Notes under the pieces: model-generated
What the model was told of the DNA's origin: nothing
The model's database searches: none
The model's input: only the letters and a program-made list of their open reading frames with translations
Shown here: one piece after another, positions 4,761-31,163 of the stretch
Position numbering within the stretch: the first letter of the stretch is position 1
Layout: each line of letters opens with the position of its first letter
Translations under genes and position numbers: made by a program
Assembly: GCA_021204025.1 (NCBI GenBank)
Contig: JAJQAC010000081.1
Location: 1 to 62,082, forward strand
Source of the DNA: Clostridiales bacterium
GTDB lineage: Bacteria > Bacillota > Clostridia > Lachnospirales > Lachnospiraceae
DNA: 62,082 nucleotides
Reading direction: 5' to 3'

Positions 4761-4763
4761 CTT

Positions 4764-4792: not shown

Positions 4793-4877
4793 TCGGAATT
4801 TTTCCACAAGTTGTGGAATATTTAAAGTGAAAACAGCATTTTTGAGGTCACAAATTGTGATCTCAGAAATTACTAAT

Positions 4878-4984
4878 AAGCGTTGTGTCAAAAAATAAAA
4901 AAATTGACGCAACGCTTGTTTTCTGCTATGAAGTGTGCTAATATGAACGCAGCGTCAAAAAGTAAAAAAATTGACAAAACGCTT
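4878..4984 (+). promoter_or_regulatory. Promoter and duplicated palindromic operator of the AbiE pair
   Basis: Two related inverted repeats lie upstream of the antitoxin gene. The first pairs AAGCGTTgtGTCAA (4878-4891) with TTGACgcAACGCTT (4904-4917). The second has AGCGTCAA (4951-4958) and TTGACaaaaCGCTT (4971-4984). TTGACG at 4904-4909, inside the first palindrome, and TATGAA at 4927-4932 form a promoter with a 17-base spacer. AbiEi antitoxins are known to repress their own operons by binding inverted repeats, so these are the expected operators. Confidence 0.7.
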
Positions 4985-5001
4985 GAAGGGAGGCGAGGCT
5001 C

Positions 5002-5718: not shown

Positions 5719-5719
5719 G

Positions 5720-6778
5720 ATGCTATCAAGAACTATGTACACATCAGAGTATATCAACGACCTGTATAAGAAAACAGGGAATGACCCCACCCTACTTGAA
5801 AGAGTGGTTTATGCATTTGGTCTTTTGGAAGCGATTAAGCGGGTCGGACTTCCGTTTTGCTTTAAGGGTGGAACCGCTCTCATTTTGTTGCTTGACCGTC
5901 CAAGGAGATTGAGTACTGATATCGACATTATCGTGGAGCCGGGAACGGATATCGACGATTATATCCGCAGGGCGGGAGAAATATTTCCTTTTCTGGAAGT
6001 AGAGGAACATGTTCGCGTTGGCAAGAATGATATTGAGAAGAGACATTTCAAATTTAAGTATCGTTCACCAAGGAGCGAACGGGATGTCACCATTTTGCTG
6101 GATGTTTTATTTGAAAAGATACAGTACAAAATGTGTATTTTAAAGCCGATAAAAAATGAGCTGCTTTTGACAGAGGGAGAAGATCTTTCTGTCAGCATTC
6201 TAAATGTCAATGGCATCCTTGGAGATAAGATGACGGCGTTTGCGCCATATACAACGGGAATTCCGTTTGGAGTGGATAAGGAATTGGAGGTAATCAAGCA
6301 GCTTTATGATTGCGCTTCTTTGTTTGATGCAATGACAGATTTTAGTGAAGTTTGCGAATCCTACCATCGGATTGTCTATTCGGAGATTGCATACAGAGGG
6401 CTTTCCATTTCAGCAGAGGATGTGTTGAAGGATACCATTAACGGGTGTCTCTGTATCGCAAGCAGAGGAATTCCTAATGGGGAAGATTATACATATTTCA
6501 AGGATGGTATCTCCAGAATCAGGAACCACATTATTGGAAGCCGGTTTGGCGGAGATGTTTCTGGGGCATATGCTGGAAAAGTGATGTATCTTGCGGCAGC
6601 GATGTTGACCGGGCAGGAAACTCTGATTAAAATTAATGATCCCGGAGAATATGCTGGACAGAAACTTGGAATAGAAAAACCAAAGAGATTCTTTTATATG
6701 CGCATCGTGGATCCGGTTTCCTATGGGTATCTTATTGAGGCTACTAAGCTCCTGCAAGGAACCGAGTTTGTCTTATAA
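5720..6778 (+). CDS. AbiEii/AbiGii family nucleotidyltransferase toxin
   Basis: The 352-residue product has the minimal nucleotidyltransferase signature FKGGTALILLLDRPRRLSTDIDI, that is a GG-T/S motif followed by the S-x-D-x-D catalytic pair, near residues 47-70, and an LGDKMTAF segment conserved in this family. AbiEii toxins are GTP-binding nucleotidyltransferases that arrest growth and can abort phage infection. The ATG at 5720 is chosen because GGGAGGA at 5703-5709 lies ten bases before it; it starts one base after the antitoxin stop codon. All catalytic residues appear intact, so the system is probably active. Confidence 0.85.
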   Translation: MLSRTMYTSEYINDLYKKTGNDPTLLERVVYAFGLLEAIKRVGLPFCFKGGTALILLLDRPRRLSTDIDIIVEPGTDIDDYIRRAGEIFPFLEVEEHVRVGKNDIEKRHFKFKYRSPRSERDVTILLDVLFEKIQYKMCILKPIKNELLLTEGEDLSVSILNVNGILGDKMTAFAPYTTGIPFGVDKELEVIKQLYDCASLFDAMTDFSEVCESYHRIVYSEIAYRGLSISAEDVLKDTINGCLCIASRGIPNGEDYTYFKDGISRIRNHIIGSRFGGDVSGAYAGKVMYLAAAMLTGQETLIKINDPGEYAGQKLGIEKPKRFFYMRIVDPVSYGYLIEATKLLQGTEFVL

Positions 6779-6880
6779 AATCCGTTAAGTGATACGTCGA
6801 TATGTTTGCGCAGACAACCGATCTGCATGTGATATCAATATCATTTCTTGGTGCCATATCAAGGCTATAGTGGAAATAAA

Positions 6881-6931
6881 TAAAAAACAGGGACTTTTAC
6901 TACCTGGCAAAAAGCAGGTTAGTAAAAGTCC
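6881..6931 (-). terminator. Terminator of the ABC exporter gene
   Basis: A long inverted repeat (6891-6906 with 6915-6931, one bulged base) is followed on the minus strand by CTGTTTTTT. The reverse direction has only a short T stretch. Confidence 0.8.
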
Positions 6932-6987
6932 TTTCCTACGTTTTGACAAAACCAGCCGGATCTTTTCAGACAAAAACCGCCCGCGGC

Positions 6988-8934: not shown

Positions 8935-9777
8935 ATGAAACGAATCATAACAGGACAGATGATGATGGAGTACAGACAGTCTTTAATTGATGAAGAAAAG
9001 AGTGCGTCAACCGTGCAGAAATATATGCATGATTTAAGAGTATTTGTGAGCTTCACGGGAGGGGAGCCGGTCGATAAGGAGCTGATGATCCGGTATAAGG
9101 AATTTTTACTGAAAAATTATCTGGTAACGAGCATCAACAGCATGCTTGCCGGCGTCAACGGTTTCCTGAAATACTTCGGTTGGTACGACTGTGTGGTAAA
9201 GACGATCAAATCCCAGAAAGGACTATTCCGAAAAGAGGACAGGGAGCTTGGACGGGAAGAATATGGCAAACTGCTTGCCGCGGCAAAGGCCGCAGGGAAG
9301 ACGCGCCTCTGGCACATCCTGCAGACGATCTGCTCCACCGGCATCCGGGTGAGCGAGCTGCGGTTTATTACGGTGGAAGCGGTCAGGGCAGGATACGCGG
9401 ATGTCAATCTGAAAGGAAAGAGCCGGAGGATTATCTTTCCGCAAAAGCTGATCAGATTGTTGAAAACTTATATCGGGGAAAAGGGGATCTTAAAGGGGAG
9501 CGTCTTTATCACGCGCGGAGGGAAGCCGGTTGACCGGAGCAACTTATACCATGAGATTCAGAGATTATGTAAGATGGCGGGGGTGGCGCGCAGTAAAGGC
9601 TTCCCGCATAATTTCCGTCACCTGTTCGCCTGCGTCTATTATGAGCAGGAAAAGAATCTGGCAAATCTGGCGGACGTCTTAGGGCACTCCAATCTGAACA
9701 CGACCCGTATCTATGTGCGGAGCGGATGGAAAAAGCAGGTGCAGATCCTGGATGAAATGGAACTGGTCGTGGCATAG
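8935..9777 (+). CDS. Tyrosine recombinase (XerC/D-like), probable promoter invertase
   Basis: The 280-residue protein has an N-terminal SAM-like core-binding domain and a C-terminal catalytic domain with a complete set of catalytic residues: R138 (TGIRVSELR), K162, H225 and R228 (PHNFRH), H251 (LGHSNLNTT) and the nucleophile Y260. GGAGGAGGG precedes the ATG at 8935. Only 23 bp separate its stop from the left 26-bp inverted repeat of the promoter-bearing segment, the standard layout of a dedicated invertase with its switch. Phage integrases are usually longer with an arm-binding domain, which is absent here. The role in inversion is inference from position and the repeats. Confidence 0.88.
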   Translation: MKRIITGQMMMEYRQSLIDEEKSASTVQKYMHDLRVFVSFTGGEPVDKELMIRYKEFLLKNYLVTSINSMLAGVNGFLKYFGWYDCVVKTIKSQKGLFRKEDRELGREEYGKLLAAAKAAGKTRLWHILQTICSTGIRVSELRFITVEAVRAGYADVNLKGKSRRIIFPQKLIRLLKTYIGEKGILKGSVFITRGGKPVDRSNLYHEIQRLCKMAGVARSKGFPHNFRHLFACVYYEQEKNLANLADVLGHSNLNTTRIYVRSGWKKQVQILDEMELVVA

Positions 9778-9789
9778 TCGCCGGAGGAA

Positions 9790-9820
9790 AAAGAAAAACC
9801 ACATAATGCGTGTTATGTGG
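9790..9820 (-). terminator. Left repeat doubles as a leftward terminator
   Basis: On the minus strand CCACATAA and TTATGTGG (9799-9820) form an eight-pair hairpin followed by TTTTTCTTTTT in the flanking DNA. It would stop the leftward transcript of the OFF-state promoter before it runs antisense into the recombinase gene. Confidence 0.55.
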
Positions 9821-9826
9821 TAAAAA
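9801..9826 (+). repeat. Left inverted repeat of the switch
   Basis: This 26-base repeat matches the reverse complement of 10034-10059 at 25 positions. It contains the dyad CATAA-TGCGTG-TTATG, five-base arms around a six-base centre, the form expected for a Xer-type crossover site. Confidence 0.88.
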
Positions 9827-9865
9827 TTTGACGGTAGCCCAAAATCCTCTACTCAGATTAAGGAT

Positions 9866-9894
9866 AGTATACCCTAAAACTGATAAAATTACAA
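9866..9894 (-). promoter_or_regulatory. Promoter inside the invertible segment, facing left
   Basis: On the minus strand TTGTAA (9889-9894) and TATACT (9866-9871) have a 17-base spacer. They match consensus at four and five positions. No comparable plus-strand promoter was found inside the segment. Confidence 0.7.
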
Positions 9895-9941
9895 TCCCTT
9901 TGAATGTAAAAACCGGACTTTTTTATTTTTTTACTCACGCG

Positions 9942-9970
9942 AAAAAACCCGGCAGAATTTTTCTGCCCGG
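9942..9970 (-). terminator. Terminator insulating the invertible promoter
   Basis: GGCAGAA and TTCTGCC form a stem extended by two further pairs past a bulged C, followed on the minus strand by GGTTTTTT. It lies upstream of the promoter and would block read-through into it in either orientation. Confidence 0.7.
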
Positions 9971-10005
9971 CAATGTTAAGCGTGCCCGGATTTGGGATTA
10001 TGGAT

Positions 10006-10038
10006 GTGCGAAATCGTGATGATTCCGCGCTTTTTTTT
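10006..10038 (+). terminator. Rightward terminator at the inner edge of the right repeat
   Basis: Bases 10006-10015 pair with 10021-10030 with one mismatch, followed by eight T. In the present orientation it stops transcription from the recombinase side before the XRE and pilus genes. Confidence 0.7.
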
Positions 10039-10059
10039 ACCTCATAACACGCATTATGT
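10034..10059 (-). repeat. Right inverted repeat of the switch
   Basis: This is the reverse complement of the left repeat except at one position. Its own hairpin is weaker (five pairs) and the plus-strand flank TTGTAAAAA lacks a T run, so it should not terminate rightward transcription after inversion. Confidence 0.88.
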
Positions 10060-10133
10060 TGTAAAAAGGAGTGACGACATTTCCCATAGAAACAGGAAGC
10101 AGACAACAAAGAAAAGACAGGAGATGGCGCTGA

Positions 10134-10484
10134 ATGAAAAGTAATATCAGAAAACTTAGGAAAGACCGGAAGCTGTCGCAGGCAGAATTAGGGGAGATCA
10201 TCGGCGTTTCCCAGCAGATCATCAGCCGGATGGAACGGGACCGCAACCGGATCGAGATCGACAACCTGCTCTCGCTGGCAGATTACTTCGGGGTATCGAC
10301 CGATTACATCCTCGCACACCGGGAGACCGGTACAGACGGAGCGCGCCCGGAGAGACTGCCGATCCCGATGGAAAATATGGATCCGGCAAGGGAGATCATG
10401 GAACTGCGCCGGAAAGTAAACGACGGCGGGATGGACGGGCTCCTGGGAGTGCTGGTGGATCTCAAACATTATATGGCGGAGTAA
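10134..10484 (+). CDS. XRE-family transcriptional regulator
   Basis: The 116-residue protein begins with a Cro/C1-type helix-turn-helix (IRKLRKDRKLSQAELGEIIGVSQQIISRMERDRNRIEIDNL, residues 4-45), followed by LADYFGVSTDYIL, which ends the domain in this family. The C-terminal part has no recognised domain. It is the first gene after the invertible promoter and would be cotranscribed with the pili in the ON state, so it may regulate the operon or couple phase to other genes; this is inference. GGAGA lies ten bases before the ATG. Confidence 0.85.
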   Translation: MKSNIRKLRKDRKLSQAELGEIIGVSQQIISRMERDRNRIEIDNLLSLADYFGVSTDYILAHRETGTDGARPERLPIPMENMDPAREIMELRRKVNDGGMDGLLGVLVDLKHYMAE

Positions 10485-10757
10485 GCGGCTCCGGGAATCC
10501 GCAATGCGGATGAGCAGAGGAATATCGAATAGCCGGTCAGCGCAAACGTTGCTGTACGGCTTATCAGATATCAATAACACTGAGACGGTGAAGGAGGTGA
10601 GGGGACACTGAGAGAAAAAACCGTCCATAAAGCCGTCTCAGGCGGCAGGTTCAACAAAGGAAAACTGAATATGGGGAACTAAAGGCAAAATCCTCCGGAG
10701 GGTGCAGATACGGATCCTGGGAGGAGAACAACAAAAATTTAAAAAATGGAGGTAACT
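10485..10757 (+). promoter_or_regulatory. Structured leader of the major pilin gene
   Basis: The 270-base gap holds no convincing gene. TGAGACGG (10581-10588) pairs perfectly with CCGTCTCA (10633-10640), enclosing an AAGGAGGTGAGG sequence that looks like a ribosome site. Downstream is the perfect palindrome CCTCCGGAGG, whose CCTCC half could also pair with the pilin ribosome site GGAGG at 10748-10752. A purine-rich stretch AACAAAGGAAAACTG and AACTAAAGGCAAAA loosely recalls c-di-GMP-I riboswitch cores, but the helices do not match, so I only call it a structured leader. A 24-codon frame beginning with CTG after the inner AAGGAGG is possible but weak. Confidence 0.4.
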
Positions 10758-12548
10758 ATGGGAAAAAGATTTAGACGACTACTTAGCCTGTTGATGGCGG
10801 TGGTGATGACGATGGGGCTTAGCGTTACTACTTTTGCCGCAGACAGTTACACTATTACGATTAATAGTGAAAAGTCTGGTCATACATATGAAGCGTACCA
10901 GATATTCAGTGGGACATTATATGATGCTAGTGGCTATGTAGCAACATCAGACCCTGAGAATGAGACAGGAAAACTCTACATTTATGATACTAGTTCGGCA
11001 ACATATGTGGAAGCAACTTATGATTCGACGAGTGGTGAGACATACTACATTTATAACGACGCTGACCTTGTTTTGTCTGACATTGCGTGGGGAAGTGGCG
11101 TGGATGGGACAGCTTTGTTAGGGGCCCTTCAGGCAGATACTACGCTGGGAACTATTTTTGCAAATTGTTCTACGGCAAAGGATGTAGCGGTGGCGCTTTC
11201 CGCTTACAAAGATGATTCTGATGTTGCAAAGGCATTTGCACAGCTGGCAAGCGAGAATCTGACATCAACGGTCGCAGGAACCAGTACAGAATCAACTTCG
11301 CCTTATACAATTGCTGGTCTGGATGCGGGATATTATTTAGTGAAAGATAAAGATAATACTGTTACTGCCGAAGGTGATGCTTACACAGATATCATCCTTG
11401 AAGTGGTAAGCGATGTAAACGTGACAGCAAAAGCGGAATATACAACAGTCGAAAAGGATGTAGATATAAGTGATACTTATATTACAGGTACGGTATCTTA
11501 TACACTGACTGGGACATTGCCGGATATCAGCGATTATTCTACATACCAGTATGATTTCCATGATACCCTTTCAAAGGGGCTGACCATTACCAATACTGGA
11601 ACAGATACTAATCCTGTGTATGACGTAACGGTTACGGTTTATGATAAAGATGCAACGACAGGAACTGAGGTAGCAAACGGATATACATTGACCGTTGGGT
11701 CCTACGATGCAACGAACGGGACAAGTATTCAAGTTACCATCGCGGATGTAAATAAACTTTATGCTAAAGATGCCACGGATCCGATTTCAGTAGGAAAGGG
11801 AACAACTATTGTTGTGACCTATACAGCGAGCTTGAATAGTAATGCAGTTGTTGGTGGCGACGGGAATAAGAATGAAGTTTATGTTGAATATTCAAATAAC
11901 CCGAATGGCAGCGGAACAGGAAAAACTACAACGGATGATGTGTTGACATGGACCTTCGAATTAGATGTAACAAAGGTAGATGGGACTGATACAACAAAAA
12001 CTTTGGAAGGTGCAGAATTTGCCCTGTATTATATTGACAGTAATAATACGAAACAATATGTTACTATCAATAGTTTAGACAAGGTAACTGGTTGGACAGA
12101 GTATTTAACAAAACAGGATGGTGATCCAACCGATCGTGTTTATGCTTCTGCATTGACTTCTGATTCGAGCGGAAATTTTGTTATTAGCGGACTGGATGCT
12201 GGAACTTATTACATGAAGGAGACAAAAGCTCCGGATGGATATAACCTTTCAGATGATGTTATTACTATTGTAATCACTCCAACTTATGAAGATACGGATA
12301 GTGATGGAAATGATAACAGCCTTACTAATTTGACAGCGACTGCTCAGGTAGGTACTGGAACTGTTAAAGACTTGAGTGCTGATAAAGACACTGGCAAAAT
12401 CTCTGTAACTGTTACAAATACGGCGGGTTCTACCCTTCCCAGCACCGGTGGCATCGGTACCACGATCTTCTACGTGATCGGCGGTATCCTGGTAGCTGGC
12501 GCGGCTGTTCTTCTGATCACGAAGAAGCGCCTCGGCAAGATGGAGTAA
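10758..12548 (+). CDS. LPxTG-anchored major pilin (SpaA/fimbrial isopeptide type)
   Basis: The 596-residue protein has a signal peptide (MGKRFRRLLSLLMAVVMTMG, cleavage near TFAAD), repeated immunoglobulin-like pilin domains, a SpaA-like domain with DVTKVDG...LEGAEFALY (lysine and glutamate expected to form an isopeptide bond) followed by GLDAGTYYMKETKAPDGY, and a C-terminal LPSTG sorting signal at residues 560-564 with a membrane segment and KKR tail. It would be polymerised on the cell surface by the class C sortase encoded next. The ATG at 10758 follows GGAGGTAACT; the ATG at 10746 overlaps that ribosome site. Confidence 0.92.
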   Translation: MGKRFRRLLSLLMAVVMTMGLSVTTFAADSYTITINSEKSGHTYEAYQIFSGTLYDASGYVATSDPENETGKLYIYDTSSATYVEATYDSTSGETYYIYNDADLVLSDIAWGSGVDGTALLGALQADTTLGTIFANCSTAKDVAVALSAYKDDSDVAKAFAQLASENLTSTVAGTSTESTSPYTIAGLDAGYYLVKDKDNTVTAEGDAYTDIILEVVSDVNVTAKAEYTTVEKDVDISDTYITGTVSYTLTGTLPDISDYSTYQYDFHDTLSKGLTITNTGTDTNPVYDVTVTVYDKDATTGTEVANGYTLTVGSYDATNGTSIQVTIADVNKLYAKDATDPISVGKGTTIVVTYTASLNSNAVVGGDGNKNEVYVEYSNNPNGSGTGKTTTDDVLTWTFELDVTKVDGTDTTKTLEGAEFALYYIDSNNTKQYVTINSLDKVTGWTEYLTKQDGDPTDRVYASALTSDSSGNFVISGLDAGTYYMKETKAPDGYNLSDDVITIVITPTYEDTDSDGNDNSLTNLTATAQVGTGTVKDLSADKDTGKISVTVTNTAGSTLPSTGGIGTTIFYVIGGILVAGAAVLLITKKRLGKME

Positions 12549-12697: not shown

Positions 12698-12740
12698 TTA
12701 AGAGTCAACAGGCAATAGATTGGGAGAAATATGGGTTTAT

Positions 12741-13670
12741 ATGAAGGAAACAGCTAAAAGACGCAGATCTTTGAAAGATATCCTGGCGACGGCTATCTTG
12801 GCATTGATATTTCTGATTGGTGTGGGTGTGCTCCTGTACCCGACAGTCAGTGAATGGTGGAATGCCAGAGTTCAGACCCGGGCGGTAGCCACCTACAACG
12901 CATTGGCTGACGCTCTGAGCGAAAAGGATTATTCTGAATATTTTGAAGCGGCCAGAGCCTACAATAACCGGTTATACGAGATCGGTTCGGCGGAGGCGAT
13001 CGCTTCCCCAGAGCTGGCAGGCGAGGATTACTGGGATCTGCTGGATATCGCCGGTACCGGGGTGATGGGTTATGTTACGATTGATAAGATCGACGTACAG
13101 CTTCCTATCTACCATGGGACGGATGCTGCTGTCCTGCAGGTTGGCGCGGGCCACATGGAGGGGACCAGTCTTCCGATCGGCGGGGAGAGTACGCACAGTG
13201 TCATTTCCGCGCATACGGGTTTGCCGAGCGCACTGCTCTTTACTCATTTAGACCGGCTGACCGAGGGAGATATCTTTACAGTTACGATCTTAAAAGAGGT
13301 CTTTACCTATCAGGTCGATCAGATCCTGGTTGTGCTGCCGACGGAGATTGAAAACCTCTATATCGAGGATGAATGTGACTACTGTACGCTTATGACCTGT
13401 ACGCCATACGGCGTCAACAGCCACCGGCTGCTGGTGCGGGGAAGCAGGATCTACCCCAGAGACGACGACGGTGATGTCGGGGAGACAGCGCCAGTGACAG
13501 GAGAGGCAGAGCAGGAACGGCAGGCATTGCCCGCCTGGGCAAAATGGGCAGCGCTGGGGATCGGTGTTTTGCTATTGATCTATCTGATTTCTGATATTTT
13601 GGTTCGTATCATCCGGCACAGACGCAAGCGCAGGAAGGACCGGAGCGAACCGGATAAGGATGCAAACTGA
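12741..13670 (+). CDS. Class C (pilin-polymerising) sortase
   Basis: The 309-residue protein has an N-terminal membrane segment (TAILALIFLIGVGVLLYP), the sortase barrel with catalytic H158 (ISAHTGLPS), C220 (TLMTCTPYG) and the arginine of NSHRLLVRG, and a C-terminal membrane segment plus basic tail, the architecture of class C pilin sortases. It should join major-pilin subunits by isopeptide bonds. The ATG at 12741 is preferred; a TTG at 12720 has no ribosome site, while GGGAGA lies 13 bases before the chosen start, so initiation may be modest. The last codons form part of an 18-bp tandem repeat that continues into the gap. Confidence 0.9.
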   Translation: MKETAKRRRSLKDILATAILALIFLIGVGVLLYPTVSEWWNARVQTRAVATYNALADALSEKDYSEYFEAARAYNNRLYEIGSAEAIASPELAGEDYWDLLDIAGTGVMGYVTIDKIDVQLPIYHGTDAAVLQVGAGHMEGTSLPIGGESTHSVISAHTGLPSALLFTHLDRLTEGDIFTVTILKEVFTYQVDQILVVLPTEIENLYIEDECDYCTLMTCTPYGVNSHRLLVRGSRIYPRDDDGDVGETAPVTGEAEQERQALPAWAKWAALGIGVLLLIYLISDILVRIIRHRRKRRKDRSEPDKDAN

Positions 13671-13887: not shown

Positions 13888-14733
13888 ATGAAGAATTACA
13901 GATTGATGAGGAAAATCGCAGGATGGATGAGCGGGACCCTTCTGGCAGTATCCATACTGGGGATGACAGCTTTTGCCTCAGTACCGGATACGGACAGGAC
14001 AGGATCCATCACGGTGACGATGCTGAGCGAATCAACCGGAGCTGCCGTATCAGGCGGCACGCTTACCGCTTATCAGGTCGGCGCAGTCTATGAGGACGAC
14101 GGCAATTACAGCTACGTCCTGACGGAAGACTTCGCGGGGAGCGGGGTTTCTCTTACCGGTCTGGATACGCAGGATCTGTCCGTGATGGCTTCGACGTTGT
14201 CCGCGTATGTATCGGACAACAGCCTGGAGGGGACAACCATTACGATTGGCAGTGATGGGATTGCGGCTTTTCCTGACCTGACGCTGGGGTTGTATCTGAT
14301 GGTGCAGCATACCAATGCGTCGGGTTACTATGCGGTGAGTCCGTTCCTTGTGATGGTGCCGATGGCGGACGGTGAGGAGTATGTATATGATGTAGACGCG
14401 GCTCCCAAGACAGAGCCGTTGAGTAAGAAATCATCGGGCGGCGGTTCCAGCCACCACAGTGGCGGATCGTCCGGCGGCAGTTCCGGTGGATCCAGTTCCG
14501 GCGGCGGATCGTCTTCGAGCAGCGGACCGGGGGTGTCGTCCGGGGATGGGGATTCCGGATCGTCCGGAGAACTGAGCCCCATCGATTCCGGCAGTCCGGA
14601 GCTCTTCAAGCTCCCGCAGACCGGACAGTTAAACTGGCCGATTCCGGTGCTGACCCTGTGCGGGTTTGCGATGTTCGCGCTGGGCTGGAAGCTGGTCTTT
14701 GGAGGAAAAAAACGCATTGAACAGGAAGCATAA
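13888..14733 (+). CDS. LPxTG-anchored minor (basal) pilin
   Basis: The 281-residue protein has a signal peptide (MKNYRLMRKIAGWMSGTLLA, cleavage near AFAS), one pilin-like beta domain ending GLYLMVQHTNASGYYAVSPFLVMVP, a roughly 60-residue Ser/Gly-rich linker with histidines, and an LPQTG signal at residues 242-246 followed by a membrane segment and a KKR tail. A long flexible linker before the anchor suits a basal subunit holding the fibre at the wall. GGGGG lies before the ATG. It overlaps the next sortase gene by 17 bases. Confidence 0.85.
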   Translation: MKNYRLMRKIAGWMSGTLLAVSILGMTAFASVPDTDRTGSITVTMLSESTGAAVSGGTLTAYQVGAVYEDDGNYSYVLTEDFAGSGVSLTGLDTQDLSVMASTLSAYVSDNSLEGTTITIGSDGIAAFPDLTLGLYLMVQHTNASGYYAVSPFLVMVPMADGEEYVYDVDAAPKTEPLSKKSSGGGSSHHSGGSSGGSSGGSSSGGGSSSSSGPGVSSGDGDSGSSGELSPIDSGSPELFKLPQTGQLNWPIPVLTLCGFAMFALGWKLVFGGKKRIEQEA

Positions 14734-15349
14734 GGCAGGTCTTGCCTTGATGGCGGCGGGCGTCCTGCTGATGACCTCGGCGGTCGGCCTGCTGTTACAT
14801 AACCGGGCGGAGGACCGGGAGGCCGGTGAGAGCGTGGACGGACTGCTGCCGATTCTCCGACAGGAGATAGCAGCTCGTGAGTCTGAAGCGGAGGAAGATT
14901 GGTACATGACCCTGCCGGGCCTGGAAGAAGAGGAAGAGGCAGAAGCAGCGGAGTCCGAGGAAGAGACCGTGATGGTTGACGGGTATGATTATATCGGGAT
15001 CCTGACCATCCCGGCGCTGGGTCTGGAGCTCCCGGTGATGGCAGACTGGGATTATACGAGGCTTAAGATCGCGCCGTGCCGTTATACCGGATCGATTGAG
15101 ACGGACGACCTGACGATCGCGGCCCACAACTACAGTCGGCATTTCGGGAGGTTAAAGAACCTGGCGGGCGGAGAAGAAGTCGTCTTTACCGACATGGAGG
15201 GAAACAGTACCGCTTATCTTGTAGCGGAGACGGAGATCCTGGAACCGACCGCGATCGGGGAAATGACGGGGAGCGGGTATCCGTTATCTCTCTTTACCTG
15301 TACCTATGGCGGACAGACGCGGGTGACCGTGCGATGCATTTATCAGTGA
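14717..15349 (+). CDS. Sortase, second enzyme of the pilus locus
   Basis: The 210-residue protein has one N-terminal membrane segment (LALMAAGVLLMTSAVGLLL), an acidic stretch (about residues 55-90) and a sortase domain with H137 (IAAHNYSRHFG), C195 (LFTCTYGG) and an arginine in TRVTVRC. It lacks the C-terminal membrane anchor of class C, so it may attach the basal pilin or the giant adhesin to peptidoglycan. Its class (B, D or other) is not certain from motifs. The TTG at 14717 is chosen since GGAGG at 14701-14705 is well placed and no ATG is near; it starts inside the minor pilin gene. Confidence 0.82.
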   Translation: MNRKHKAGLALMAAGVLLMTSAVGLLLHNRAEDREAGESVDGLLPILRQEIAARESEAEEDWYMTLPGLEEEEEAEAAESEEETVMVDGYDYIGILTIPALGLELPVMADWDYTRLKIAPCRYTGSIETDDLTIAAHNYSRHFGRLKNLAGGEEVVFTDMEGNSTAYLVAETEILEPTAIGEMTGSGYPLSLFTCTYGGQTRVTVRCIYQ

Positions 15350-15525: not shown

Positions 15526-18500
15526 ATGAAACGAATAGCCAGAACCGGCAAATGGAGAGATGGCCTGAACCGATACGCACAGAGATTCCGCAGGGAGGGG
15601 CGGAGGCTTTGTTCTGTCTTTTTATGCGCGAGCCTCGTCGCAGGGAACTGTTCCGTGTCTCCGTTTTCCGCATTTGCGGAGGTAGAGAGCGGAGATTATG
15701 ATTATGAATTTGACCGGATGTCGTTAAAAGAGGCATTGAGGACGGCACTTGACGATGGCGAGACTCTCGAAAAGGAGCTGTCATTTGAGGGTCAGTACGC
15801 GGAAGAATACGACGAACTGCTGAAGCCGGACGGAACGCTTTACGAATTGTTTCCGGAGGGAGTGGAAAAAGATACGGATCGGGACAAGGCTCTGGATCTG
15901 CGCATCTTTGCGCGCGTACAGGGCTCGATTCCGATTGAAGAGACTTATGTCTTTGACGGCTCGGAGGAGATCGTCTTTTTGCTGACCAATAAGACGGATC
16001 AGATCCAGACAGCTACGATCTATATCGATGAGATGCAGACAGAGACCATCACGGTGCTGCCTGCAGATTCGATTGCGGTGGATCAGGGACCGTCTGATGG
16101 GGTGGTGAGCGGAGCCCGCGGAAGCGGCTCTGCGTCCGGAAGTGGCTCTGTGTCCGGAAGTGGTTCTGTGACCGGTTCCGGTTCTGCATCCGGAAGTGGC
16201 TCTGCGTCCGGAGTCGCGGACATCATCACGATCGAGGGTACCGTAGATGAGGAAACGTCTGGTACCGGGATCACGCAGGACTCGGAAGTAAGCATACTGG
16301 GTAACGATGCAGACTCGAAAGAAAACGACATTACAGATGATCGGATCGCCGGTGACAGCGATATGACCATCGATGATGATAAAAAAGACAATCAGGAAGA
16401 AGCAGAAGATAGCGGTCATCGCGGAGACGGGATCGAAGATGCAGGCGAGGATAAGGACTCCTTCGACGCCGCAGATGGTACAGAAGATAAAAATTCCGCA
16501 GAGGCCGCGGGAAAAGAAGAGGCCGCGGACGATCAGAACGATGCGGACAGAGCTGAGGATGACAGCAATCCGGATACCGATGACGCTGACAGCGACACTG
16601 CCGATGCCGATAACGACGATAAGAGTGACAGAGGGGAAGCAGACGCCGATGACAGCAGCGACAGTTCCGATACCAATGATGATAACGATGCGGCAGACAA
16701 TTCCGATACTAATGACAACGATGATGCTGACGACAGCAGCAATGACGGCGACAGCTCTGATGATACATCGGGTAGCAGCGACGGCAATGAGGTGGCGTCC
16801 ATCTCGCTCCATCGCACAGCTTTGCTGAGCGCTTCGGTTGCCAGCGCTTCAGATGCAGATAAAAATGCGACGGCAAATACAAATGCGGCCGCAAATACAA
16901 CAACAAACACAAATGCAGCAGCGAATACGACAGGTACAGATAATGATACGGCAAGCCCGTCCGACGCGACGGCGTCTGACGCCGACCGCATGCTTGATGG
17001 TACGCTGTATGAGGCGGTGCGTCTGGATAAGAAAGGCGCGGTTGCCTTTGTTACAACCGGAGCGGACTGCCGGTTTGATGTGATCGTACTGGAAGAGCAG
17101 GAGATGACCTGTGAGTCCGAGAGCGGCGATCAGGAGTATCTGGTTACGGTGAGCGGCTGGCTGCCGCAGGGCGCGACCATCACGGCAGAGCCGGTGGATG
17201 TGGAGATCGCGGATAAGGTAGTCCTGCTGGCGCTGGATATCTCGATCTATGATGATAACGGGGAAGTGTTTGAACCGGCGGATGGGACAATATCGGTGAT
17301 GATTGAATCTCCGGAGATTACCAGCGCTGTAGAAGATGATGAGGATTTTAATGTCTATTATGTCCCGGAGGAAGGTGAACCGGAACTTCAGGACGTCACT
17401 GAGACGAAGGAAGGCAGTGTCGTCTTTGAGGCGGAGCATTTCTCCATATATGTCGTGACATCCGGTGACAGTACAATTGCGAGTGGGACGATTGAAAACA
17501 GTGATGGGACATCAGTTACCTGGGTAGTGTACGAGGGCCTGGATGGGGAGCGTACGCTGGTAATCTCTTCCGATAATGGAGGAGCCATCCCGGATTATAC
17601 ATCAGCGGATAGTGTCCCATGGCGTTATTATATAACAAGCTCAACAATCAATGTAGTAATTGAAGACGGAGTAACTGGGATTGGAAGCTATACGTTTACG
17701 GGAACGGCTGTTCATATATCGAGCCTGGATATTGGTGATACGGTGGAATCGATTTCCAGCTATGCGTTTTTCCAGGCATACCTGCCGGATACGCTGGTGA
17801 TCCCGGATAGTGTAACAACCATAGGATCCAATGCGTTTAATGTCAATGGAGGCATTACCTCCATTACCTTAGGATCGGGTATTAAGACAATCGGGGAAAG
17901 CGCTTTCTGTACTTCCGGTGGATCTTCTTTCGGCACGATTTACCTTCCTGCTTCTGTCACAAGCATCGGCGGAAACGCGTTTAAGAACGCGACTGGCTAC
18001 GACTGGCAGGATGATAGCAGCGTGACAACAGATGAAAATGGATATGAGACAAATGGAACGTTTACCATCGTGGACGGGGTACTGTACAGTGCTGATCTGA
18101 AGACTCTGGTGGATTATCCGGGCATGCGTGAGGATGAGAGTTACCAGATTCTGGATGGAGTAACGACTATTAAGAGCAGTGCGTTATCGTATCTTCTGCA
18201 AACGAAGGAAATCATTGTGCCTTCTTCTGTAACAACGGTGCCATCGTCCAGTATGTTTAGCTTTTCTTCCGGCCTGGAGTCGGTGGTCTTTGAGGATGGG
18301 GCGAACGCGAACTGTACAAATAATATGTTCTTTAACTGTTCCGGATTGATTTCGGTCACGATACCAAATACCGAAGGGACCGTCATGGGAACACAGTATT
18401 TCTGGAATTGTGAAAGCCTGACCAGCATTTCCATCCCGGAGAATGTGACGACGATCCGGAACCTGACGGATGGAAGCCTGTCTTCCCTGCAGGAGGTTTA

Positions 18501-21500
18501 CTATGACGCGGCAAATGCGTCCATCACAGGAACTTATGTGTTCAAGAGTTCCCCGCCTTATTCGCTGACCATTGGCGCGGATGTGGATACGCTTCCTAAG
18601 AATTTTAATTATTTTGTTCAGTATGCCGACAGTATTATCTTCGAGGGACCGAATTTTATCACCGTGACCGATGGTGCGTTTGCGGACGCGTCGGATTCTG
18701 TGCTGAGCGACCTTTCCGGTTATATTTATGTAGATGCATACGGTGCGATCTATCAGATCAATACGGATGATAAAACGGCTACACTGGTTTACGTCCCGGA
18801 TACATATCTGGATGCGGATGGTAATACGCAGGATCTGACGTCGTATACGGTTTTATCTTCTATTATTGACACGGAAAATGGGGAGGATACAGAGTATCAG
18901 GTAATTGCAGTAGCCACAGACGCTTTCCGCAATGCGGCAAATCTGACTGACCTGGCATTTGAAGACGCTTCCTCAATCACTGAAATTGCAGATTACGCCA
19001 TGGCAAATGCCACGAAACTGGCCAGCGTGACAGATGAGAGTTCGGGTACGGTTGCGTATACCGTGGATGATGCTATCGGGCTTTTTACAAATTCCAATAT
19101 TAATGAATGTTATGGGCCTTTCTATAATACTGCGTTGAAGGGCGCTACCGTCAGCGGATCCGCTGACGATATGGATGGAACAAAATCGCTGAGAGTTTAT
19201 GCGGATGATAATAACGATCATGTATATATGGATATCGTGATGAGTGGTGGGGAGTGGAGTTATGTTGACAATGAGGATGCGGGCGGATATTCTCTGATGA
19301 CGGGAGAAGCATTAACTGTTACGGTAACTGCACAGGCTCCGAGTGCCGATAATTCCTATGTCTATCGTGTTTATCTTTCGTATACGGATAGTGACTATAT
19401 CCTGGATTATAATTTAGCAGGGTATAATGCGACCTGGGGAACCACGGATGACCCTAATACGATTTATGTGGATTTTACGGTAACAACAAGTGATACGGTT
19501 AGTTTTACCCTGACGACTTACTATCCAAATGTAACCTCGGACGGCGGCGGCCTGACCGTCTGGGGAGAAGTGCTTAGTTCCACTGATGAGGGGGAGGTAA
19601 AGGAAGCATCATCAGAAAAGCCTGCGGATGGCGGTCAAACCATTCAGGCCTGGTGGGAAACGGAGCCGGACACCTATGGGTTGACAAAAACAAACGGAAA
19701 CCAGGAAGAGGTGAAACTTTATGCGGAGAACGGTGAGATCCGTTTCGCAAGTTCGCTGATTTATGAGATTGAGAGCGCATTGCCTGATGTTACGAATACG
19801 TATGGGCGTGACCTGGCGACCAGCGTGTATTATGAAGATGTCCTGACGCTGCCAGATGGAGTTAAGTGGGATTCTTATGTGTACACAGAGATTGAGGAAG
19901 GAAGAGTTTATTATGCCTCTGGAGTTCTCTATGTATATGATGCTGACGGCAACAGGGTGGAGGTTGCCAAACTTTCCGTTTCAGCTACGGATGTGCTGCT
20001 GACCGGCGCTGGTATCAAAATAAATGATGCAGGCTTTGTCGTTTTGTACTGGTCTGTACGAAATAAGTCGACCGATTCAACTCTGAGTACCCATACGGTA
20101 ACTCTCAGTATTGATCCGGAAGCGACCATCATTACTGATGTTTCCCAATTGACGGATACAACAGCGACTCCGACCATTAACAATGAAGTGAACGCGGTTT
20201 ATCATTACACCTATAGTGGAGATCAGTCCAAGAGTAGTACAGCCACGAAGACAGTGTCACAGGATAAAGGCGCACTTACGTTCAGCAAGTCGGCAACTTC
20301 GGTGAGTTATTTCGGCGAGGATGTGACTTATACTTTGACGATCGCCAATAACACGGCACAGGATTACACAGCAGATGATGCCGGAGTCTATACGGTTGTG
20401 GATACCCTGAGTCAATATACCTATATCAGTGCGGAAAATATGGAGTCTATGTTTGAAAGCGCCTGCATAGAGGGGTATCCGCTAACAATTACAATTAAAA
20501 ATGCAGTGCTGGGAGTCATTGATACCAAAACAGGCGTCGATGGAAGTACGACAGTCAGCCTGAATGCAGGGAACACCTCTTCGGACAGCGAGTCGACGGT
20601 GGACCTGACGATTACTTGCGAGGAATCAGAAGGTTCTTATACTTACAAGGTTTCTTATAAGGATGACAATAGCGAAAATAAAGAAGTGGAAGGAAGTGAT
20701 CTGGCGGCTCTGCTGCAGAATCTGGGTTATGGCGTGACGAATAGTTCACAGTATACCTGTACCTGGACATTGGGAGGCGGAGAAACAGTAACTGGTGGAG
20801 AAGAAACGGTATCTTCTTTCCAGATGAACGCTGGGACAACCCTGACATTTATGATCTTTGCTACCACAAAGAATACCTTCCAGATGCTTAAGGATGATGA
20901 CCGTCAGAACCTGTATGATCTGGCATCAACTTATAAGATAACTAACAGTGCATATATCAATTCGTCGCAGACTGGAAATGTAGAGAGTGCAAGCCTAAAA
21001 AATCCTCTGGGAGTGAAGCGGGAAGCGTATATTGCCAAATCCCTGTACGCAGCGGATGGGACGCGGCTGACTTCGGATCTGTCTGCGGAGGAGGGAGATG
21101 TCCTCGAGTACTGGCTTACCTTCCGCCATACGGGAAGCGGCGAGTATGACGACCTTCCTATGGTAGATGATCTGTATGGGAGCCAGCTTTTGCTGGTGCC
21201 GTACGCGGAAAACAGCAGCAATCCAAGTATTCTGTCTGCTGATAATAAAGTCACTGTGAAGTATGATGGGGATGGTAATCCGGAGTATTATTGTCTCGGC
21301 GAAGGTATCTATATGGATGTTACTGTCGGCATGGATGAAGACGGAAATTATCTGGTTGCGGCGTCTGTTACGGTAGAGAAGATAACAAGTGAGGCAGAAG
21401 CAAACGCTGTGATAGATGGGAAAAGCACGGTGCTCGGCAGCACGGACACCGGCTGGCATACACAGATTAAGTGGTACTATGATCATCTGGATGGCGGTAA

Positions 21501-24500
21501 TTATAGCAGTACGATTAAATATCAGACACTTGTAACGTATGATGAAAATTCCCTGACCTATTCCCTGGGCAATATCGTTTGGATGAATGATCGGACCGGT
21601 TCCCGTATTTATGACACGATCTGGGGAGACGGTTCCCTGATCGATTTTGAAAAGCATATTGTTGTGAATGAAAGTGATACGAATAACTCCAAGCTGGATG
21701 AATATATCAATGAGACGGGCGAACTGGGAACGGATGGCTATGATGACGATGATTACAGTACGGTTCATGCAGGAGAGTTCGTTACCTACGATCTGGTTTT
21801 GTCGGGAAACGCAAACAGTTATTATACCCTGTACGGCAGTGATCTGTGGGATCTTCTGCCTGCGACGTATGATGTGTTCAATTGGGTAAAAGATGACAAT
21901 GTGACCATGAAATATGAGAAGGGTGATAATATTACAATCAGTCGAAATGACCTTTCCTTAACTGAAGATCAGACGGATCTGGATGCGTGGGGTATTACAA
22001 ACAACCGCGGCGGCAATAAAGGCAGCTGGATCTATTGGCCGGCCGATATGACAATTACCTTTGCGGGTGAAGGTCAGCTGATTATTACTGTGACGCTGAA
22101 ATTCCCTGAGAGTGATAGTGACGGGACGTGGAGCAATTACGTGAGTAAAGTTGGGGGGACAAAGCTGGAAAACACCTTGTACGTGCGCAACTTTACGTCA
22201 ACGGTCACTCACGACCTGGTGGAAGAGGCAAGTGTGATTCTGCAGAAAGGTGTCTGGAGCGAAGTGGCGGATTCTAAAAATTCTTACTCATTCAAACCAG
22301 TAGATGTAGATTTAAAATATTTTAATAACCAAGACAGTTTTTATCGCTATGTTGTTTATTATGTGACGCTTTATAACGCTGGGAATACAAGGTTGTATCT
22401 GAGCGAACTGACGGATCACTTACCGGATGGTTTTACTTATGTGAGTCTTGTGGGGAGTGCATCTGATACAGGAACCAGTGAATCGGTAATTGTGCAGGGA
22501 GGAACTTCAAACAGTCTGGTAACCGGGTTGCCAGATGGCACCGTTTATCGCTCTGCGACGATTACCAGGTCAGGCGCAGATTCCAATGGAAATACAGTGA
22601 CCTTTACAGTCGGCGGGTATTCCGGCGATTATGACCTGCTTTATGATACAGAAAAAGGAATGTATTATCTTGGAAAAGGCGATGCAGTGGTCTTTGGGTA
22701 CGTATGTAGAGTGGGTTCCTACAGTGACACGGGTGAGACAGCGACGAATACAATCAGTATGGAGTACTATGACTATCTGGGAGTAGGAGTTTCGCAGATA
22801 CCGGAAAGTGATTCCAGTTACAATGTGACCGGTGCGGATGTGAGTTATGGTAATGATATCTATTATAACTGGACAGACAATGACGGCAGCCGGGATACCG
22901 AGACAGACAGAGATGGAGCGCTGACTTTGTCGTCCACGGTAACGCAGAAACTTGGGGAAATCATACCAGGTGTCTCGAAAGCATTTACGGGATATACGGA
23001 TAGCAGTGGTGCCCTGCACACGAATACGGAGGATATCACTTCCCTGAATGGATACAGCACGGAAACTCTGCACTGGAAAGCGACATTGACGAATGACGGA
23101 AAGAGAGAGATTTCGGATTATACGATAACAGATACCATGCCGGATCCTTATGTTTTCACAGGCGAAGTAAATATGACAATTTATTCAGCTTCAGGGTCGA
23201 AATCATTGGAGGATAGAACACTCTTTACGATTGGAGATCGTTCTGCGGATGATAAAGAGGTAACAGTAACATACTTAATCAGCGGGGGTACATATCAATA
23301 TACATTAACAATTGATGGAAATCCAATTACAACGCATTTTCCAAATCTTGAATCTTCAGGAACGATTACTGTGTCGCTAAAAACGGATACCAGCGGAAAT
23401 GAAGTGCTGACAGTAGAACTGAAGGGAACGTATTTTGCAGTCCCTGAAAATGGTAAGGTTGAATTGACATATTCCTCGGTCAGCCCGGGAGGAAGCGCTC
23501 CTTATGCAACCTATATAAATAAAATAACCTTTGATCCGGACAGTTCCTTTGAATTGAAAGGCGAGGGAACACTTGAGAAGGATGATGATGGGGCAAATGA
23601 CGCCGTAAGTGCTGTTGCATCTGTGATCGTAGCCGGCGCCTACGCGACCAGTTCATCCAAGAGTGTAACAGAATTGGTGAGTACAGTGGATGCAGATACC
23701 GGCGATAGTACTTTAACAGAAACTACTAACTCAGCAAGTTCGGATGTTTCTGATAATAGTATTGTATTGTCGGGCACCGGTAGTATTTTCCGGTATACAC
23801 TTTCGGTGAAGAATCTTACTTCCTATAATATGGCTAAGCTGATCTTGTTTGATAATCTGCCGGAAGTAGGAGACACTTATGCGGTTGGAAATTCTAACCG
23901 TAACAGCAAGTTTACTGTGAAACTGGCTGATGACCCCAATTTTGCCGTATATGTGACAGATTCAACATCTGGGAACGTTACTAAGATTGATAGCAGCAAG
24001 TATGAAATTCAATACAGTAGCGATGGTACTTTTGAAACCAGTGATTACAGTGAAGAAACTGCTGATGGCTGGGCGACGTGGGATGAAGACGTTAGTGCAG
24101 ATAGTGTACGTGCGATTCGCATAATTATAAAGGATAATAGTGATGAAGGATTGATACCGGCTGGTGCAACCGTTACCGTTACCTTTGATGCGGTAGCTTA
24201 TTGTGCGGATGGAAGCAGCTTTGAAGCAGGTTCTGTTGCATGGAACAATTTTGGTTACCATTATACACTGCATAAAGGTGGTGATGTGACGGACGGATTG
24301 ACAGCAATGCCTCTGGCGGTTGGCGTGCAGGTGCCGTCGGCTCCGGAGCTGGAGAAGAAACTGGTTGATCTGGATGGCTATGCTTATACGGTTGATAAAG
24401 ATACTACGTTTACATTTGTGGTCTACGAGGGGGAGGAACTTAAGGATTCGGATGGAAATAGCTATACAACACAAGATGAATTAGAAAACGCATTGAAGGA

Positions 24501-25314
24501 ATTAAATGATGATACGGATGACGGTAATGATAGAGCTTGCAAGTCGGTGACCATGAAGGTAAGCAGTGGCGAGTCTTCTTCGGGTTATTTATCTTTAAGC
24601 GAAACGAACTGGAACGGCTGGACATGGAAAGATGGGGCAACCTATACCATCGTTGAGTTCCTGCCGGATGGGAGTTATGCTTTCAGAGAGTGGAGTGCGA
24701 CGAACAACAGTGCCGGAGATGCGGCAAATGGCAGTTCCTATACCTTTACTTATCATCGCGAAAAGACACTTTATCTCGTCTGTGATAATACCTACCAGTT
24801 GTGGAAACTGAATCTGACCAAGGTAGACGCAGACAGCTATGATGCGGATAGCAAGACCTATAGCAGATTGCTGGAAGGCGCTGTGTTTGCTCTGTATACT
24901 AAGGTCGCTGCTAAAGCAATGACGCAAGATAAGTATGGTAACCTGACACTGACAGATAAACCAGATCCAACTGTGGAAGTTGTTACAGGAAATGATACCG
25001 TTATCTGGTACCTGTACGATGTGCAGACCACAAATATAAGTGGTATCATCGAGTGGACGGATCTGACCGAAGAAACCTATTATCTGGTCGAGGTCAAAGC
25101 GCCGGACGGCTACAATCTGAGCTGGACTTCCCAGGAAGTCAAGCGTAATGCCAATACGGTATCGTTGACCGTGGAGAACACTGCCGGCGTCATCCTTCCG
25201 GAGTCCGGCGGCCCCGGTACCACCCCGTTTAGAATCGCGGGCTTGCTTCTGATGAGCGTATCGGCTTACCTGATTTATGACATTTTAAAACGGCGGAGGA
25301 TTTACGCATCCTAA
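15526..25314 (+). CDS. Giant LPxTG-type surface adhesin, probable pilus-tip protein
   Basis: At 3262 residues this is by far the largest gene. An extended signal peptide ends near AFAEVESG. Residues about 190-230 are Ser-Gly repeats, and about 250-490 are extremely Asp/Ser-rich and probably disordered. About 700-1030 hold BspA-like leucine-rich repeats (for example VIPDSVTTIGSNAF). A long series of beta-sandwich domains with DUF11-like and isopeptide-type features follows. Near 3090-3215 lies a SpaA domain (LNLTKVDAD...LLEGAVFALY, VEVKAPDGYNL). LPESG at 3224-3228 with a membrane segment and KRRR tail ends the protein. It probably mediates adhesion, covalently joined to the pilus or wall by the upstream sortases. 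GCGAGGGGG precedes the ATG; a strong terminator follows. Confidence 0.88.
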   Translation: MKRIARTGKWRDGLNRYAQRFRREGRRLCSVFLCASLVAGNCSVSPFSAFAEVESGDYDYEFDRMSLKEALRTALDDGETLEKELSFEGQYAEEYDELLKPDGTLYELFPEGVEKDTDRDKALDLRIFARVQGSIPIEETYVFDGSEEIVFLLTNKTDQIQTATIYIDEMQTETITVLPADSIAVDQGPSDGVVSGARGSGSASGSGSVSGSGSVTGSGSASGSGSASGVADIITIEGTVDEETSGTGITQDSEVSILGNDADSKENDITDDRIAGDSDMTIDDDKKDNQEEAEDSGHRGDGIEDAGEDKDSFDAADGTEDKNSAEAAGKEEAADDQNDADRAEDDSNPDTDDADSDTADADNDDKSDRGEADADDSSDSSDTNDDNDAADNSDTNDNDDADDSSNDGDSSDDTSGSSDGNEVASISLHRTALLSASVASASDADKNATANTNAAANTTTNTNAAANTTGTDNDTASPSDATASDADRMLDGTLYEAVRLDKKGAVAFVTTGADCRFDVIVLEEQEMTCESESGDQEYLVTVSGWLPQGATITAEPVDVEIADKVVLLALDISIYDDNGEVFEPADGTISVMIESPEITSAVEDDEDFNVYYVPEEGEPELQDVTETKEGSVVFEAEHFSIYVVTSGDSTIASGTIENSDGTSVTWVVYEGLDGERTLVISSDNGGAIPDYTSADSVPWRYYITSSTINVVIEDGVTGIGSYTFTGTAVHISSLDIGDTVESISSYAFFQAYLPDTLVIPDSVTTIGSNAFNVNGGITSITLGSGIKTIGESAFCTSGGSSFGTIYLPASVTSIGGNAFKNATGYDWQDDSSVTTDENGYETNGTFTIVDGVLYSADLKTLVDYPGMREDESYQILDGVTTIKSSALSYLLQTKEIIVPSSVTTVPSSSMFSFSSGLESVVFEDGANANCTNNMFFNCSGLISVTIPNTEGTVMGTQYFWNCESLTSISIPENVTTIRNLTDGSLSSLQEVYYDAANASITGTYVFKSSPPYSLTIGADVDTLPKNFNYFVQYADSIIFEGPNFITVTDGAFADASDSVLSDLSGYIYVDAYGAIYQINTDDKTATLVYVPDTYLDADGNTQDLTSYTVLSSIIDTENGEDTEYQVIAVATDAFRNAANLTDLAFEDASSITEIADYAMANATKLASVTDESSGTVAYTVDDAIGLFTNSNINECYGPFYNTALKGATVSGSADDMDGTKSLRVYADDNNDHVYMDIVMSGGEWSYVDNEDAGGYSLMTGEALTVTVTAQAPSADNSYVYRVYLSYTDSDYILDYNLAGYNATWGTTDDPNTIYVDFTVTTSDTVSFTLTTYYPNVTSDGGGLTVWGEVLSSTDEGEVKEASSEKPADGGQTIQAWWETEPDTYGLTKTNGNQEEVKLYAENGEIRFASSLIYEIESALPDVTNTYGRDLATSVYYEDVLTLPDGVKWDSYVYTEIEEGRVYYASGVLYVYDADGNRVEVAKLSVSATDVLLTGAGIKINDAGFVVLYWSVRNKSTDSTLSTHTVTLSIDPEATIITDVSQLTDTTATPTINNEVNAVYHYTYSGDQSKSSTATKTVSQDKGALTFSKSATSVSYFGEDVTYTLTIANNTAQDYTADDAGVYTVVDTLSQYTYISAENMESMFESACIEGYPLTITIKNAVLGVIDTKTGVDGSTTVSLNAGNTSSDSESTVDLTITCEESEGSYTYKVSYKDDNSENKEVEGSDLAALLQNLGYGVTNSSQYTCTWTLGGGETVTGGEETVSSFQMNAGTTLTFMIFATTKNTFQMLKDDDRQNLYDLASTYKITNSAYINSSQTGNVESASLKNPLGVKREAYIAKSLYAADGTRLTSDLSAEEGDVLEYWLTFRHTGSGEYDDLPMVDDLYGSQLLLVPYAENSSNPSILSADNKVTVKYDGDGNPEYYCLGEGIYMDVTVGMDEDGNYLVAASVTVEKITSEAEANAVIDGKSTVLGSTDTGWHTQIKWYYDHLDGGNYSSTIKYQTLVTYDENSLTYSLGNIVWMNDRTGSRIYDTIWGDGSLIDFEKHIVVNESDTNNSKLDEYINETGELGTDGYDDDDYSTVHAGEFVTYDLVLSGNANSYYTLYGSDLWDLLPATYDVFNWVKDDNVTMKYEKGDNITISRNDLSLTEDQTDLDAWGITNNRGGNKGSWIYWPADMTITFAGEGQLIITVTLKFPESDSDGTWSNYVSKVGGTKLENTLYVRNFTSTVTHDLVEEASVILQKGVWSEVADSKNSYSFKPVDVDLKYFNNQDSFYRYVVYYVTLYNAGNTRLYLSELTDHLPDGFTYVSLVGSASDTGTSESVIVQGGTSNSLVTGLPDGTVYRSATITRSGADSNGNTVTFTVGGYSGDYDLLYDTEKGMYYLGKGDAVVFGYVCRVGSYSDTGETATNTISMEYYDYLGVGVSQIPESDSSYNVTGADVSYGNDIYYNWTDNDGSRDTETDRDGALTLSSTVTQKLGEIIPGVSKAFTGYTDSSGALHTNTEDITSLNGYSTETLHWKATLTNDGKREISDYTITDTMPDPYVFTGEVNMTIYSASGSKSLEDRTLFTIGDRSADDKEVTVTYLISGGTYQYTLTIDGNPITTHFPNLESSGTITVSLKTDTSGNEVLTVELKGTYFAVPENGKVELTYSSVSPGGSAPYATYINKITFDPDSSFELKGEGTLEKDDDGANDAVSAVASVIVAGAYATSSSKSVTELVSTVDADTGDSTLTETTNSASSDVSDNSIVLSGTGSIFRYTLSVKNLTSYNMAKLILFDNLPEVGDTYAVGNSNRNSKFTVKLADDPNFAVYVTDSTSGNVTKIDSSKYEIQYSSDGTFETSDYSEETADGWATWDEDVSADSVRAIRIIIKDNSDEGLIPAGATVTVTFDAVAYCADGSSFEAGSVAWNNFGYHYTLHKGGDVTDGLTAMPLAVGVQVPSAPELEKKLVDLDGYAYTVDKDTTFTFVVYEGEELKDSDGNSYTTQDELENALKELNDDTDDGNDRACKSVTMKVSSGESSSGYLSLSETNWNGWTWKDGATYTIVEFLPDGSYAFREWSATNNSAGDAANGSSYTFTYHREKTLYLVCDNTYQLWKLNLTKVDADSYDADSKTYSRLLEGAVFALYTKVAAKAMTQDKYGNLTLTDKPDPTVEVVTGNDTVIWYLYDVQTTNISGIIEWTDLTEETYYLVEVKAPDGYNLSWTSQEVKRNANTVSLTVENTAGVILPESGGPGTTPFRIAGLLLMSVSAYLIYDILKRRRIYAS

Positions 25315-31156: not shown

Positions 31157-31163
31157 ATTGCTT

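Follow-up and report, generated by a model that had tools for sequence, protein, structure and literature searches.

Invertible promoters with their own tyrosine recombinase are a known kind of switch, and strand exchange by such an enzyme demands an identical central region. The Bacteroides Mpi system, which PMC11892184 cites, resembles the locus described here in that several invertible promoters per genome serve surface structures, but a single recombinase acts on many sites, and the structures are capsules instead of sortase pili. The fim switch of E. coli differs from this locus in controlling chaperone-usher fimbriae and in having two recombinases, and it is not known to comprise a set of cassettes with separate cores. 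Its likeness to the present case is that the invertible segment bears the promoter of the fimbrial operon and that recombinase genes lie adjacent, as set out in PMC2784873. That paper also describes the C. difficile RecV/cwpV switch, in which, as here, a clostridial XerC/D-family recombinase, an arm-linked terminator and a surface protein come together, with imperfect 21-bp arms 195 bp apart; unlike here, the promoter lies outside the segment, the OFF state is proposed to arise via termination, and recV is not adjacent (PMC2784873). Phase-variable sortase-dependent pili are described for the gut commensal Bifidobacterium breve, but they are attributed to replication slippage at a G-tract and not to DNA inversion (PMC9187656).

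The closest described group appears to be inverton group 139 of Jin et al. (2025), which is paired with invertase group 35: 32 of its 33 invertons are from Clostridia, nearly all have a tyrosine recombinase within 5 kb, and flipping and orientation were measured with reads (PMC11892184). The family studied here is probably this Clostridia group, an assignment that goes by the published description. An Intestinimonas inverton of group 139 has arm starts 241 bp apart, as do the site starts here, which is possibly a coincidence, and the words "sortase" and "pili" are absent from the main text, whereas the present locus encodes a sortase pilus (PMC11892184). Literature titles and abstract openings, a partial coverage that is no proof of absence, yielded no inversion-controlled sortase pilus. 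What is less expected at the present locus is not the kind of switch, but its occurrence beside several sortase-pilus cassettes and the possible role of the recombination core as an address.

The window, meaning the whole stretch of 62,082 nucleotides that was analysed, is contig C49 of a 91-contig, 3.04-Mb assembly (genome G000). Read rightward, a recombinase gene is followed by 23 bp, a left arm, a spacer of ~210 bp, an inverted right arm, 71 bp, an XRE-type regulator, pilus genes and a 3262-aa surface protein (Table 1). This is the layout that the first-pass annotation had proposed, and it held up on both sides of the arms: the recombinase stop codon ends at 9777 and the 26-bp arm starts at 9801, while domain searches on the right return XRE, a SpaH/EbpB-like pilin, a class C sortase and an LRR/SpaA protein. 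The recombinase, with GGAGGAGG directly upstream of its open reading frame, keeps R138, K160, H225, R228, H251 and Y260, which I take to be its full catalytic set, and its relatives among solved structures are mostly Xer-type. Rfam searches at gathering thresholds gave only a tRNA and a DUF3800-XI RNA, and no match at the switch. I consider it likely, with a probability of roughly 0.86 judged from sequence, that this locus is a self-contained phase-variation switch, i.e., an invertible promoter with its own recombinase.

Table 1. Features of the switch and of the genes behind it, in window coordinates.
Feature	Position	Strand	Evidence
Tyrosine recombinase, 280 aa, presumed invertase	8935..9777	+	Pfam Phage_integrase 1.5e-23; XerC-like PDB 4a8e 2.3e-16; catalytic residues present
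Leftward terminator-like structure: left-arm hairpin (9821-9798), then TTTTTCTTTTT	9785..9821	-	
Left arm of the inverted repeat (IRL); core TGCGTG at 9807-9812; also leftward terminator-like, together with the outer A-rich stretch	9798..9826	+	
Putative invertible segment, core to core, 241 bp between site centres	9807..10053	.	Homologous segments reversed in relatives
Conserved 23-mer over -10 and presumed transcript start, candidate operator	9849..9871	.	Genome pattern search
Promoter-like site of sigma-70 type, TTGTAA-N17-TATACT, facing the recombinase (OFF)	9866..9894	-	Consensus match; conservation
Intrinsic terminator-like hairpin with T tract	9951..9967	-	z -3.98
Right inverted-repeat arm (IRR), core CACGCA at 10048-10053	10034..10062	+	
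116-aa XRE/HTH_3 regulator, the first gene after the switch	10134..10484	+	Domain search; four genome copies at E<=1e-20
Major pilin, SpaH/EbpB family, LPXTG-type anchor	10746..12548	+	98.6 bits, cutoff 95
Class C sortase	12720..13670	+	265.6 bits, cutoff 160
Minor pilin-like protein	13888..14733	+	Partial SpaH/EbpB match below cutoff (46.2 bits, cutoff 95); no Pfam match
Second sortase	14666..15349	+	PF04203 3.6e-13
3262-aa surface protein, BspA-type leucine-rich repeats and SpaA domain; putative member of the pilus transcript	15526..25314	+	Domain search

Recomputing the arms gave the same count that had been noted at first, 25 of 26 positions matching inverted, and lengthening them to 29 nt left two mismatches (93% complementary). 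The CATAA-N6-TTATG dyad described for each arm was likewise found, at 9802-9817 and 10043-10058, with centres TGCGTG and CACGCA that are reverse complements. The dyad motif by itself is frequent (22 places in the genome versus 10 for a reversed control); what goes beyond chance is the presence of two copies with the same centre beside a recombinase.

Relatives of the recombinase were found in 12 of 24 genomes of the genus (E <= 1e-40) and, at E <= 1e-60, in 72 of 397 genomes drawn from the family and 45 of 291 drawn from the class, the own genome being counted each time. The 100 loci studied comprise 31 places in the genus, seven of them in the own genome, and the best 69 of at least 128 in other genomes of the family draw. 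For the arm counts, 22 loci with a contig end within 450 bp were left out, resulting in 78, and ten more with an arm score below 14 were dropped to give 68. An arm pair scoring at least 16 was present in 64 of the 78 loci; among 234 shuffles there was none, and among 74 upstream regions there were six. The six-base core was the same in both sites in 65 of the 68 loci, with 58 distinct left-arm cores among them. Mismatches between the two sites of a locus were absent from positions -1 to +3 (0/68), while the positions 9 to 12 bases away from the centre were mismatched in 5 to 31 of 68 loci. At G342:C5, G052:C139 and G172:C2:13475 the cores did not match; these three appeared mis-centred on inspection, but they were counted as misses and omitted from analyses of 65 loci.

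Finding arms by exact seeds favours matching cores, and an arms-only scan without that bias was run on the same 78 loci. It returned exactly two sites in 42 loci, three in one, one in eight and none in 27, and the cores matched in 41 of the 42 loci having exactly two sites, the one exception (G172:C1:3238901) having two direct copies. Beyond the family, matched site pairs were seen in 17 of 19 class-wide loci, themselves 19 of 62 places in other genomes. A core that is free to vary between loci and fixed within each of them is the pattern that strand exchange by a tyrosine recombinase demands; independent divergence of the arms in homologous loci, which would have spoken against a switch, is the opposite of what was seen, as cores agree within a locus and differ between loci. 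With this core-matching rule, switches of the kind can be located and their sites paired from sequence alone, even in ordinary assemblies.

The genes behind these switches vary, and pilins, large surface proteins and capsule genes are among them. The first gene matched HTH_3 in 13 of 64 cases and signal peptidase in 7 of 64, the second gene SpaA in 6 of 45 and a pilin backbone domain in 4 of 45, and many genes in both positions were without such a match. Two departures from the usual arm layout were noted in passing. Locus G172:C1:3238901 (L093) is an exception with two same-core sites in direct orientation, which would predict excision and not inversion. At L141, L142, L149, L152, L156 and G275:C33, one side has two same-core arm copies 32 to 63 bases apart, and inversion there could yield two segment lengths.

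Segments in reversed orientation were seen in relatives. When paralogous loci within G008, G007 or G383 are compared, their segments align only if one is reversed, yet past the right arm the alignment is forward only. For G008 C18/C10, the segment scored 10 forward and 73 reverse (shuffled maximum 14) and the flank 131 forward and 10 reverse. For G007, the pair C186/C154 gave 12 and 33 (maximum 13) with flank scores of 91 and 10, and C195/C154 gave 12 and 26 (maximum 14) with 102 and 10. G383 C10/C31 scored 11 and 44 (maximum 13) with 174 and 12, and the comparison of G069 with G383:C31, also seen by BLAST, scored 10 and 38 (maximum 16) with 211 and 10. A further candidate pair, G038:C64 and G245:C59, has a reversed segment but flanks that are not homologous and was left uncounted. 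The window locus itself is intact and assembled in one orientation; the reversed segments are those of paralogous loci in relatives.

Contig ends fell within 400 bp of the recombinase on its 3' side in 22 of 100 loci and on its 5' side in 2 of 100 (binomial p 3.6e-5, with counts that are not independent because several loci come from one genome). Such an excess on the 3' side is what mixed orientations would cause, though the breaks may partly stem from repeats common to paralogous loci or strains. Among 23 loci with a contig end within 470 bp, 12 have a recognisable arm at a distance of 31 to 269 bp from that end, and in 11 no arm can be recognised. An automatic promoter scorer labelled 42 of the 65 loci OFF, 16 ON and 7 undecided. 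Its labels for single loci were discarded as too crude: G007:C154 was scored OFF despite a forward site seen by eye and a segment reversed relative to two paralogs. The claim on orientation therefore rests on segment homology and not on scorer counts.

The segment between the arms carries a minus-strand promoter-like site that is conserved in five related switches, including C77 and C42 of the same genome and G006:C15 and G006:C17. It is credited as promoter-like because of this conservation, since consensus scans give some chance matches: a stricter scan found four sites in the region versus 2.5 expected by chance, this being the sole one reported in the segment. A looser scorer added one forward match for C49, weaker and likewise inside the segment (TTTACT-17-CAGAAT), which C77 and C42 do not have. 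The conserved site faces the recombinase and has its back to the pilus genes, a point that the first-pass annotation had not made; the orientation in the assembly is accordingly predicted to be OFF. No plus-strand promoter-like match was found by the scan between the right arm and the first pilin; six such matches lie within the pilin and sortase genes and may leave room for transcription independent of orientation. Taken with the reversed segments in relatives, the conserved site inside and the lack of a forward site outside largely support the original proposal of an invertible promoter with a dedicated recombinase that would drive the pilus operon.

In G000 and its nearest relative G006, this subfamily has six complete switches, every one of which scores as OFF, and a frozen switch would give the same result. 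The locus could accordingly be a real switch that no longer flips, with arms and recombinase as remnants and the operon locked OFF, a reading to which the two arm mismatches at C49 also lend something. I regard it as unlikely, given that the recombinase is intact with all catalytic residues, that core identity is kept while other positions drift, and that the promoter-like site is conserved.

Two terminator-like structures accompany the promoter-like site, one within the segment and one in the left arm. Read leftward, the left arm folds into a hairpin with TTTTTCTTTTT behind it, and the OFF transcript would accordingly stop short of the recombinase gene. This asymmetry is common in the family: at least six A in the ten bases outside the left arm were counted in 40 of 65 loci, and at least six T outside the right arm in 3 of 65 (Fisher 1e-12); A-richness outside the right arm was seen in 9 of 65, and just inside the arms, A-richness on the left was counted in 17 of 65 loci and T-richness on the right in 15 of 65. 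These structures bring to mind cwpV, for which a terminator in the OFF transcript is proposed (PMC2784873), and the segment might likewise work mainly by termination, with the dyads as recombination sites and transcription beginning outside. That seems very improbable here: as assembled, both hairpins have their T tracts on the left, and once the segment was turned to ON, its hairpin would stop transcription entering from the recombinase side, leaving ON silent if the segment held no promoter. The RecV/cwpV arrangement, moreover, has its promoter upstream of the segment, whereas the conserved promoter-like site of the window lies inside it.

For an invertible promoter with its own recombinase, the following course of events is proposed. 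The recombinase would bind both arms, cut at either end of the six-base core that they have in common, and invert the segment. In the OFF state, the promoter would fire leftward, its transcript would end at the left-arm terminator, and the pilus operon would stay silent. In the ON state, the inverted promoter would face right across the right arm and drive the XRE regulator and the pilus genes; the segment hairpin would then lie upstream of the promoter, shielding the operon from read-through from the recombinase side.

The own genome encodes seven recombinases of this family (E <= 1e-40), five of them mutually 81-84% identical. Four accompany near-identical regulator-pilus cassettes, one of these across a contig gap. 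Complete switches are present at C49, C77 (2581-2888) and C42 (22834-23143). Contigs C71 and C17 break off shortly after an arm (by 31 and 2 bases), the core being the same in both, one carrying the recombinase and the other the regulator and pilus genes, and they probably flank one switch that the assembly did not bridge. The five further switches beside that of the window (L015-L020) are thus C77, C42, the start of C71 with the end of C17, the start of C25 and the start of C85. A contig end coincides with three of the five, as mixed orientations or shared repeats might cause. The cores read TGCGTG at C49, TATGTG at C77, TGTATG at C42, TGGAAG at C71/C17, TATGTG at C25 and TACACA at C85. No arms were found near the C68 recombinase. 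Family recombinases without nearby arms (G000:C68, L021; G006:C52, L120; G008:C13, L127) may act on distant sites or serve another function; C68 and C85 are syntenic with G006:C52 and G006:C18, and C68 and C52 are orthologs.

With mostly differing cores, each site pair would recombine with itself, even if near-identical recombinases bind each other's arms. The core common to C77 and C25, and likewise one common to two near-identical G172 loci, means that insulation by core would not be absolute. Two loci seldom have a core in common in any case (19 of 2278 pairs in the whole set and 1 of 36 within genomes), so that the rarity of sharing by itself says little about insulation. A second possible link between cassettes is the conserved 23-mer. 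With up to three mismatches allowed, the genome matches it three times, each time in one of the complete switches that had served to define the pattern, and a reversed control gave no match; the recognition region of the four XRE regulators is near-invariant. A shared operator, and hence cross-talk between cassettes, is a plausible hypothesis; part of the conservation of the 23-mer is simply the promoter.

The pilus operon also occurs where no switch is present. In G006, the ABC transporter beside the window locus is 86% identical and leads directly to a regulator, 41% identical to that of the window, and a pilus operon; this syntenic place (G006:C65, L175, 9380-10060) lacks a recombinase, and no arms could be made out there by eye. 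The G006 operon is preceded by TTGCAA-N17-TATAGT, a promoter-like site in forward orientation (two sites were found versus 1.6 expected by chance). Since this operon has a forward promoter-like site and lacks a switch, the recombinase and switch seem to be a module that replaces, or was replaced by, a fixed promoter.

The module missing from G006 measures ~1.2 kb, and no synteny between G000 and G006 was found in the upstream flanks of the other recombinase-bearing pilus cassettes (1500 bp was used for C49). Both observations would fit a mobile element whose recombinase and sites serve insertion and excision instead of switching. I consider this the least credible of the alternatives: inverted sites such as these predict inversion instead of excision, many genomes have the arrangement, next to genes of various kinds, and a search of viral contigs returned no relative.

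Extending the switch reading to the whole genome, one may tentatively picture at least four sortase-pilus cassettes that flip independently, each with its own recombinase and with its core as an address against cross-recombination. Near-identical XRE regulators would bind a shared operator and set which pilus is shown when several cassettes are ON, and the recombinase with its switch would be a module gained or lost before fixed-promoter operons. Sortase pili and giant adhesins shape the adhesion of Clostridia, e.g., to gut mucus, and their recognition by the host. If several pilus sets flip independently, one strain would present many surfaces, and the phenotype of a single isolate would mislead. 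The locus family would also be a natural system for studying how many related recombinases avoid scrambling a genome.

Several minor observations concern other parts of the window. Positions 4650-6982 encode DUF6577 and AbiEii-type proteins, a probable type IV toxin-antitoxin pair, and contain the DUF3800-XI RNA match (minus strand, 4690-4737); in G006, the corresponding syntenic stretch measures just 115 bp. A ~95-bp repeat at 31162-31257, ~130 bp from a tRNA, may be a small dispersed element, as the majority of 48 matches in G006 in one comparison land on it. The stretch behind the adhesin (25466-26069) recurs behind a pilus cluster at G006:C108 (L176) 1301-2227, where the other matching genes are more diverged.
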